Shown: positions 6,822 through 8,622 of the stretch, piece after piece
Numbering within the stretch: the stretch's first letter is position 1
Layout: each line of letters begins with the position of its first letter
Source: a virus
Length of the DNA: 21,677 nucleotides
IMG/VR virus record: IMGVR_UViG_3300043543_000115
Span: 1-21,677 of that record
Strand: one strand, 5' to 3'
Program-made: the position numbers and the translations under genes
The notes under the pieces: generated by a model
Told to the model about the DNA's origin: nothing
What the model saw: only the letters and a program-made list of their open reading frames with translations
The model's database searches: none

Positions 6822-7937
6822 ATGGCTGGTGATTGGATACCGGTTTCTGTCGATCTTCCAGGGAAGCCAGAGGTAGCACGGTTGGCCGCCTTGACTGAGC
6901 GCAGCCCGGATGAGGTCGTGGGACTGCTCGTCCGGTTCTGGGCATGGGCCCAGTCCCAGACAGCGGACGGAACCTTTCCTGGGATGAACTGCCGGATGAT
7001 TGCGGCTGTGTCGCACGTCCCCGTCTGGTTCCTCGAAAAGCTGTCCGACGTAGGGTGGCTCATCATCCGCAGCGACGGCCTGGCCATTCCTGGCTTCGAT
7101 CGCTGGATGAGCGGTGGCGCGAAGCGACGCCTGAAAAAACGAGACCACGCGCGCGGGTCGCGTGGACAAGTTGTGGATATCTCACATCCACAGAACGCCC
7201 ACAACCTGCGCGCGAGGCGTGCAAAACAGGCACACGTCACGCCTAATTCTGACGAAACGGCGGTTGAAACACCCCCTCGTCGCTCAAACGCATCGCGTGG
7301 ACAAGTTGTGGACATCGAATGTCCACAGGATGCGCGCAACGTGCGCGCGTCGCGCGCAAAGCAGACACAAATCGCATTTCGTTCTGACGAAAACGCGGTT
7401 GAAACACCCCCTCGCAGCCCAGACGGACAAGCGCCGCCTGTATCGGCAGAAAGTCCAAGCGCACCAAGACCTTGCGTTTCTACCGAGGCGGTCCAGTGCG
7501 AGGCTGGCTGTGGACATTCTGTGGACAACTTGTGGACATCAGATGTCCACAAAATGTCCACTAGAGAAGAGAGATATAGAGAGAGAGAAAAGAATAATGT
7601 CCCCCCTAGATTCCCCCCGCGTGAACGCGGGGGGAAACCGGATGTGGATTTCTCCCGCGTGCAGTTCCCCGAGGGGTGCGACACCCCCGAGGTCCGCGCT
7701 GCGATCGCCGACTGGCTTGCATACCGCCGAAGGATCGGCAAGCCGTTCAAGGACCCGCAGGGGCAGGTCGCCCTGCTGCTCAAACGCTTCGGGCGAACTA
7801 TCGTCGAGGCGGTGCCCTACTCGATCGCCCAGGGGTTCATCGGATGCTACGCTCCGGGCCCAAAGCAAGCACGCGCGAGCCAAGCGAACGATCCGGCCTA
7901 CGTCTATGATCCGAGCTTCAAGTATGAGACCTTCTGA
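6822..7937 (+). CDS. Phage replication initiator (lambda O-like) carrying an internal origin
   Basis: The 371-residue protein begins at ATG 6822, 5 nt after AGGAGG (6811-6816); the upstream in-frame GTG 6807 lacks such a site. Residues 1-105 look like the winged-helix N-terminus of phage replication proteins (G-D-W-I-P-V near the start, R-F-W-A-W-A-Q, D-G-L-A-I-P-G-F-D-R-W), followed by a basic patch R-R-L-K-K-R. Residues about 113-200 are two copies of a 45-residue low-complexity unit (R-G-Q-V-V-D-I ... A-V-E-T-P-P). A disordered linker leads to a C-terminal helical domain (about 283-345, W-L-A-Y-R-R, S-I-A-Q-G-F-I-G-C-Y) seen in other phage replication initiators. The linker DNA holds phased DnaA-box-like iterons. 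The next gene, overlapping by 14 bp, is a DnaC-like loader, giving an O/P-type pair. Family call from fold pattern and context. Confidence 0.75.
   Translation: MAGDWIPVSVDLPGKPEVARLAALTERSPDEVVGLLVRFWAWAQSQTADGTFPGMNCRMIAAVSHVPVWFLEKLSDVGWLIIRSDGLAIPGFDRWMSGGAKRRLKKRDHARGSRGQVVDISHPQNAHNLRARRAKQAHVTPNSDETAVETPPRRSNASRGQVVDIECPQDARNVRASRAKQTQIAFRSDENAVETPPRSPDGQAPPVSAESPSAPRPCVSTEAVQCEAGCGHSVDNLWTSDVHKMSTREERYREREKNNVPPRFPPRERGGKPDVDFSRVQFPEGCDTPEVRAAIADWLAYRRRIGKPFKDPQGQVALLLKRFGRTIVEAVPYSIAQGFIGCYAPGPKQARASQANDPAYVYDPSFKYETF
7158..7425. repeat. Tandem 135-bp duplication within the initiator gene
   Basis: The stretch beginning TCGCGTGGACAAGTTGTGGA recurs exactly 135 bp later (7158 and 7293), and the end word CGGTTGAAACACCCCCTCG recurs with the same offset (7261 and 7396). 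The period is 45 codons, so the frame is kept and the protein gains a repeated linker. Each copy holds the same three-box cluster, so the duplication doubled origin boxes rather than a protein domain. The copies have diverged by point changes and compensating small indels. Confidence 0.8.
7161..7636. other. Candidate replication origin: phased DnaA-box iterons, AT-rich stretch and hairpin
   Basis: Cluster A has box-like words at 7161, 7172 and 7184 (the last inverted). Cluster B has words at 7296, 7307 and 7319 (the last inverted). Cluster C has five: TGTGGACAT 7509, TGTGGACAA 7520, TGTGGACAT 7531, then inverted ATGTCCACA 7543 and ATGTCCACT 7554. Start-to-start spacing is 11 bp between direct boxes and 12 bp where orientation flips, so the boxes lie on one face of the helix. 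In cluster B the words TGTGGACAT and ATGTCCACA form a perfect palindrome around CGA. TTGTCCACA is a known high-GC variant of the DnaA box. The purine-rich, AT-richer stretch 7563-7599 follows and could be the unwinding element, then a strong hairpin. An origin inside the initiator gene parallels ori-lambda in gene O. The pattern is seen; origin function is inference. Confidence 0.7.
7611..7636. repeat. 11-bp perfect inverted repeat next to the putative unwinding stretch
   Basis: TTCCCCCCGCG (7611-7621) and CGCGGGGGGAA (7626-7636) pair perfectly around the loop TGAA. It is in coding sequence (P-P-R-E-R-G-G-K) just after the purine-rich stretch of the putative origin. As single strand it would make a very stable hairpin, as used by some primase or single-strand initiation sites. 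Confidence 0.65.
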
Positions 7938-8622
7938 GGTATTCCGACGCATTGCCAGCAGCGAGCACGAGCTACGTTGCCGCGAGAGACGCGAGCGCGC
8001 GCAGGTTATCCATGGCCAGGTGTGGCTGGGGAAGCAGTTGCGCGCGGCAGAGTTGCTGTGGCAGTCGATCGGCCGGCGGTACGAGTCCTGCACGCTCGAC
8101 ACGTTCCACGCGCATTTGCCAGCCCAGCAGACTGTCTTGGGGCAGCTCCGCGAATATGCTGCACGCATCCGCCAGCGCGTGGCCGAGGGCGTCAACGTCC
8201 TGTTGATCGGGCCGAGCGGCGCAGGAAAAGATCACCTCCTGGCTGGCCTGGTGCATGTGGCACTGGCGGAGGGGCTGTCTGTACGATGGACGACAGGCAG
8301 CCAGCTCTGGCTGCACATGCGAGATGCGATCCAGGGCGGCTGCGAGCGCCAGGCAATCGAGGAGTTGGTGCGGCCCGATGTGCTGGTGCTGTCGGATCCC
8401 ATTCCGCCGCACGCCGAGCCATCGAACTATGAGCGCTCGATCCTTTACGCGATCGTCGATCGCCGCTACAGCCACCTGCGCCCGATCTGGATGAGCGCCA
8501 ACGTCGCCAGCCGCCAACAGGCGGATGAGCGGCTGGGGCATGCAGTGGCGGATCGCCTGCGCCATGGCGCGCTGGTGCTGGGCTGCTGGTGGCCCAGCTA
8601 TCGCCAATCAGGCAGCGCATGA
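7924..8622 (+). CDS. DnaC/IstB-type helicase-loader ATPase
   Basis: The 232-residue AAA+ protein starts at ATG 7924, overlapping the initiator stop by 14 bp. After a charged helical N-terminus (about 1-85) come Walker A G-P-S-G-A-G-K-D-H-L-L (96-106), a Walker B strand V-L-V-L-S-D (153-158), sensor I W-M-S-A-N-V (189-194), and the C-terminal H-A-V-A-D-R-L-R-H-G-A with W-P-S-Y-R (about 206-227), which matches the arginine-finger and end region of E. coli DnaC. Asp replaces the usual Ser/Thr after the Walker A Lys, and the Walker B Glu is absent, so catalysis may be modified. It should load the host replicative helicase at the origin marked by the upstream initiator, as lambda P does. No transposase is nearby, arguing against an IstB transposition role. 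Confidence 0.85.
   Translation: MRPSEVFRRIASSEHELRCRERRERAQVIHGQVWLGKQLRAAELLWQSIGRRYESCTLDTFHAHLPAQQTVLGQLREYAARIRQRVAEGVNVLLIGPSGAGKDHLLAGLVHVALAEGLSVRWTTGSQLWLHMRDAIQGGCERQAIEELVRPDVLVLSDPIPPHAEPSNYERSILYAIVDRRYSHLRPIWMSANVASRQQADERLGHAVADRLRHGALVLGCWWPSYRQSGSA

Follow-up and report, generated by a model that had tools for sequence, protein, structure and literature searches.

Lambda gene O carries iterons and an AT-rich tract in its central part, and the tract-proximal iterons suffice in vitro (PMC7466680). The Rac prophage has an active origin, oriJ (PMC3945230), which we infer to be the array in its ydaU gene. Intragenic origins of this initiator-loader kind are known. The locus described here has two features of the lambda type, namely repeats inside the initiator coding sequence and an adjacent helicase-loader gene. 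It lies in a 21.7-kb IMG/VR record of 21,677 nucleotides (the window), which may be a fragment and which codes for an integrase, an SMC-like ATPase, the initiator, the helicase loader, RusA, a terminase and a portal. The array inside the initiator gene is very probably the origin of phage DNA copying, and from the sequence we put at roughly 85% the probability of a tailed-phage, lambda-style origin that employs iterons, tract opening and loader recruitment.

Initiator gene and repeat array

The gene at 6822-7937 (plus strand) encodes a YdaU-type phage replication initiator of 371 amino acids (phrog_2509, E = 1.9e-29; phrog_9474, 6e-23). A tblastn search with the initiator matched Rac YdaU, epsilon15, SPN1S, phiPSA1 and Xanthomonas phages, with 38% identity to Rac YdaU in the N-domain, and phrog_2509 was matched by 26/26 alignment members including the window, through the shared N-terminal domain. 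This domain (6822-7160, plus strand) was modelled by AlphaFold2 as a winged helix with a mean pLDDT of 84 and the order H-E-H-H-E-E, and is a candidate reader of the iterons, with a predicted recognition helix at about residues 68-76. Compared with predicted viral structures, it matched phage primosomal protein 1 and the N-domains of replisome organisers; solved structures gave weak winged-helix matches and no close relative. The C-terminal domain (7605-7934, plus strand), which the window has in common with the relatives L003, L024 and L102, is weakly lambda-O-like (phrog_678, 'replication initiation O-like', E = 0.0054). Any homology to lambda O is confined to this C-terminal part, with no Pfam match and no close relative among solved structures, and the domain may contact the loader or the helicase. 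The adjoining gene (7924-8622, plus strand) overlaps the stop codon of the initiator and encodes a DnaC/IstB-like helicase loader (PF01695, 6.5e-17; phrog_50, 4.5e-28).

The initial annotation had described eleven helically phased boxes in three clusters within the initiator gene. Allowing up to one mismatch to TGTGGACAW, ten of the eleven were recovered at the positions it gave, on the plus strand at 7161, 7172, 7296, 7307, 7509, 7520 and 7531 and on the minus strand at 7319, 7543 and 7554; only the box at 7184 (ACATCCACA; minus strand TGTGGATGT) requires two mismatches. Cluster 1 (7161-7192; boxes 7161+, 7172+ and 7184-) is degenerate, cluster 2 (7296-7327) comprises 7296+, 7307+ and 7319-, and cluster 3, the core array (7509-7562), has direct boxes at 7509, 7520 and 7531 followed by inverted boxes at 7543 and 7554. 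Measured start to start, direct neighbours are 11 bp and inverted neighbours 12 bp apart, in agreement with the phasing claimed. The window contains 14 one-mismatch matches against 5.1 expected, a number reached in 0/100 shuffles of the window, and 10 of the 14 fall within the initiator gene. The eleven-box array is thus confirmed as real.

The encoded peptide does not explain the repeats, since the nine copies of GTGGACA/TGTCCAC in the open reading frame exceed the count in every one of 2000 synonymous-codon shuffles (mean 1.2, maximum 5). Moreover, a 36-nt stretch with 86% identity occurs in clusters 2 (7297-7332) and 3 (7521-7556) in differing reading frames, so that the protein fails to account for the repetition, and the boxes of cluster 3 occupy all three frames. 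Clusters 1 and 2 cannot be counted as separate occurrences, since both sit in an in-frame 135-bp tandem duplication (7158-7425, plus strand; direct repeat 7158-7290 / 7293-7425, 78% identical, spacing 135).

Comparison with the nearest relative, L003, whose initiator has 85% protein identity with that of the window, separates the clusters further. In cluster 3, 0/45 box bases and 3/9 spacer bases differ (Fisher p = 0.003), and it is therefore taken as the conserved core. The box bases of clusters 1 and 2 differ at 5/27 and 3/27 positions, respectively (8/54 together), and against L003 these clusters look like extra copies in decay. Synonymous differences number 0/27 sites from cluster 3 through the tract and hairpin described below vs 53/241 elsewhere (p = 0.004), a drop that becomes borderline when measured against the C-terminal domain alone (p = 0.06). 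These data support a DNA-level constraint on the array; the phasing was correctly read as a feature of the DNA, the boxes surpassing synonymous shuffles and being kept in L003 while the spacers change.

The whole feature is larger than the box array. The last iteron abuts a purine-rich, A+T-richer tract (7563-7599, plus strand), a candidate unwinding element that holds all six AGA codons of the initiator gene. This is followed, still within coding sequence, by a GC hairpin with a perfect stem of 11-12 bp (7611-7636), matched in 2/200 synonymous-codon shuffles. The hairpin was also considered as an intrinsic terminator and rejected, there being no terminator-like T-run after it; the single Rfam match, to a family of human lncRNAs, was below threshold and due to chance.

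Iteron words and the adjoining tract among relatives

Relatives were collected from the phages matched by tblastn, from IMG/VR records and from bacterial genomes scanned with alignment A3, giving 36 non-redundant genes; a nucleotide search found no related phages. The three copies from bacterial genomes (L100, L101 and L102) all come from Planctomycetota MAGs, and within the eight-member clade of the window every host-assigned member is from Planctomycetota. Planctomycetota is the likely host phylum, and the window probably derives from an uncultivated tailed phage of planctomycetes.

Scanning these homologues for the array, as the initial annotation had proposed, revealed phased arrays at the same place in the gene with differing words. 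In a word-agnostic test, in which any 7-mer was allowed and the phased chain was scored against synonymous-codon shuffles, 27/36 genes reached p <= 1/60, and the remaining nine fell short of significance. The iteron word lies behind the significance in 23/36 genes, at a matching place; in the other four (L024, L026, L034 and L081) the scan picked the purine tract, and these were left out of the iteron detections. The 36 tests concern related sequences and are mutually non-independent. No array is recognisable in L099. Most arrays lie at about gene nt 330-450, just past the N-domain; the core array of the window, at gene nt 688-741, is displaced by the duplication.

The words found are GTAACGC (Rac and many other relatives), GTCACGC, TGTCCGCA (epsilon15 and L102), TGTCCCGA (L101), TTCCGCA (L100) and TGTCCACA (the window and L021-L023). 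Five of them occur within the window's own eight-row clade (100/99 support in the N-domain tree), so that the word changes even between close relatives that apparently share a host phylum. On the N-domain tree the words are clustered, with 8 changes vs 17.6 in shuffles. While the word changes, the relatives keep the position of the array, its phasing, its arrangement in two arms and the purine tract beside it.

Words also recur at second sites. The GTAACGC lineages carry a second inverted pair of GTAACGC at gene nt 149/161, and two GTCACGC lineages (L025 and L028) have GTCACGC at the same site with the peptide GHA/CHA. Such words, following the DNA-binding domain and recurring elsewhere, are expected of an initiator's own iterons, and from these sequence patterns the array is most likely read by the phage's own initiator. 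The inverted pair at gene nt 149-167 (for example in L010, L019 and L044) sits in the coding region of the winged helix and encodes GNAxxVT, so that the protein sequence here appears to be dictated by the DNA site. L100 carries a further TTCCGCA array in the stretch 32-121 nt before its initiator gene, at -76 to -32, which is possibly autoregulatory. L041 has an HNH-endonuclease-like insertion (FQCVYCGRQSD...LSIDHLVPASRGG) in the initiator linker, at gene nt ~380-640, which separates iterons at nt 332-356 from iterons at 654/665 beside the tract.

In almost every relative the final iteron passes without a gap into (C/T)AGAGAAGAGAAG, irrespective of the word, and the family-wide junction reads AC, the end of the array, followed directly by (C/T)AGAGAAGAG. 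The YdaU-type gene of the window conforms to this layout of a phased array after the N-domain and then a AGAGAAGAG tract. Arginine codons are AGA or AGG in 69/69 cases inside the tracts vs 101/588 elsewhere, a comparison that is partly circular as the tracts were chosen by purine content. In 12/36 genes a perfect stem within 150 nt past the tract exceeds synonymous shuffles (matched in at most 8/200), and the six clade members tested, which represent the window's clade, all show this excess although their stems differ in sequence. A strong hairpin of varying sequence stands just past the tract in the window, L021, L024, L100, L101 and L102; it is possibly a melting boundary or an aid to helicase or primase loading.

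We tentatively suggest, as something that may well prove otherwise, a two-part origin in which the word is re-coded repeatedly together with the recognition domain, the (C/T)AGAGAAGAGAAG tract is constant even between distant lineages and possibly a sequence-specific single-strand element read by the initiator, and a hairpin often follows whose shape, unlike its sequence, is conserved. Within such an arrangement the constant tract may be the phage counterpart of the DnaA-trio. Word switching beside a constant purine tract in the YdaU-type family was not found described in the open literature searched, a scope that did not extend to the principal review of phage replication modules.

Host DnaA, operator and coding relic as alternatives

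The initial annotation had suggested an origin bound by host DnaA, by the phage initiator or by both in competition, and had seen a different control logic in a DnaA-like array. An origin inside the initiator gene is very probable, as described above; a DnaA-based control logic finds no support among the relatives, which change the word. The boxes of the window fit the DnaA consensus only with G allowed at position 3, with six sites within one mismatch. Among 35 scored arrays, at least five DnaA-like sites (up to one mismatch) occur only in the window, L003, L021 and L022, the other 31 having 0 to 2 each, so that DnaA-box identity is not kept in the homologous origins. An exact-pattern scan of IMG/VR for a three-box DnaA-like array, from which records very near the window were possibly omitted, returned only the contig of L003. 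In three Planctomycetota MAGs the dnaA neighbourhoods showed no box cluster, a result uninformative about the box used by the host. Given that the relatives retain the layout with other words, the DnaA likeness appears incidental, and the sequences do not support host DnaA as a conserved logic, though DnaA may bind this particular word.

An unlikely alternative is a dual use, in which the boxes are primarily initiator iterons and the word has drifted to a DnaA box in the lineages of the window and of L021-L023, host DnaA then assisting or competing and coupling replication to the host. Both lineages do carry exact TTGTCCACA, and a perfect TTATCCACA lies about 70 nt past the arrays of epsilon15 and SPN1S. 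However, only one or two steps separate TGT-NN-ACA from other words of the family, a distance that chance convergence can bridge, and the host dnaA neighbourhoods gave no informative signal. The TTATCCACA in the epsilon15 and SPN1S initiator genes (L011 and L018) is a perfect E. coli-type DnaA box. It was also observed that the Thermoguttaceae MAG of L102 has two DnaA-like proteins, one of which appears to be encoded on the initiator contig itself (G003:C15; CALKER010000015.1, 111,327 bases).

Quite improbable is the reading of the array as true DnaA boxes, to which host DnaA would bind cooperatively and open the tract, either unaided or as a competitor of the initiator. TTGTCCACA fits a DnaA consensus that admits G at position 3, L021 and L022 carry the same word, and cooperative DnaA arrays have a similar head-to-tail spacing of 11 bp. 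Yet members of the same clade place TGTCACGC, TGTCCCGA, TGTCCGCA or TTCCGCA at this position, at least five DnaA-like sites occur in just 4/35 arrays, and tandem TTNTNCACA pairs were not found in the three Planctomycetota MAGs. Orientation bears on the same point. With the purine tract as reference, the window has TGTGGACA as its direct arm and L021 has TGTCCACA, the order being TGTGGACA then TGTCCACA in the former and TGTCCACA then GTGGACA in the latter. Both arms resemble one DnaA box on either strand because TGT-NN-ACA is nearly palindromic, but DnaA boxes are directional, and a DnaA complex following their direction would point one way in the window and the other way in L021.

That the array serves mainly as an operator for self-repression of the initiator, and not as an origin, we consider very improbable: several relatives have extra copies before the gene or within the part that encodes the N-domain, but in the window the gene is free of boxes over its first 280 nt and none precedes it, and the invariant adjacency of the purine tract suits melting over repression. 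Least probable is that the repeats have no DNA function and merely reflect a repeated peptide or a past duplication of coding sequence, which is possible for clusters 1 and 2, held by the in-frame 135-bp duplication, but is contradicted and was discarded for cluster 3 by the frame and synonymous-shuffle tests, its boxes lying in three frames that encode unrelated peptides, surpassing the shuffles and being kept relative to L003 while spacers vary.

A probable intragenic origin and its relation to known systems

From the positions and phasing of the boxes, the DNA-level constraint, the conserved layout and the order of domains and genes, a model of an active, lambda-style origin can be proposed. 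The N-terminal winged helix of the initiator would bind the phased 8-9 bp iterons, with 7509-7562 as core and the upstream copies as degenerate additions, and would bend or wrap the array into a nucleoprotein complex built along a single DNA face. This complex would open the adjoining purine-rich tract at 7563-7599, and the C-terminal half of the initiator would recruit the DnaC/IstB-like loader encoded directly downstream, which in turn would place the host DnaB helicase. The initial annotation had also suggested GC skew as a check on the origin position; over the 21.7-kb window, possibly a fragment, the skew shows no switch at the array.

The analysis maps a probable origin to the base in a phage that is uncultivated and probably infects planctomycetes. 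It also provides a simple rule for finding origins in many phages and prophages, namely phased two-arm iterons running into YAGAGAAGAG within a YdaU-type gene. The natural switches of word, each with its homologous winged-helix domain, form a dataset on the evolution of initiator DNA specificity, in which the initiator coding sequence carries its own target while specificity evolves. The analysis also cautions that a DnaA-like word alone is no proof of DnaA control.

Bacterial oriC DnaA-box arrays resemble the locus in the TTGTCCACA match, the 11-bp phasing and the adjacent tract, a putative melting element in the window. In contrast to oriC, the word of the window is not conserved in relatives, its orientation is reversed in L021, and the array is tied to the initiator gene. 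The initiator genes of epsilon15, SPN1S and phiPSA1 have a phased two-arm array and a AGAGAAGAG tract as in the window, but the word is TGTCCGCA and their C-terminal parts are unlike that of the window, the one in epsilon15 being annotated as DnaT-like. Rac ydaU-ydaV shares with the window a homologous N-domain, a matching location of the iterons within the gene, a purine tract immediately behind them and a DnaC-like gene next; its word is TGTAACGC, compared to TGTGGACA in the window, and it has extra copies in the N-domain coding region.

Compared to the lambda-type origins, the iterons of the window are 8-9 bp long and arranged in direct and inverted arms at 11/12 bp, the N-domain is YdaU-type and not demonstrably O, the loader is DnaC/IstB-like, and the tract is GA-rich and followed by a hairpin. 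Like the window, the lambda-type origins (lambda and the Stx phages P27 and 933W; PMC7466680) have iterons midway through the initiator gene beside an AT-rich unwinding tract, for which the purine tract is the candidate in the window, with the loader gene next, iteron number varying among relatives and the iterons nearest the tract mattering most.
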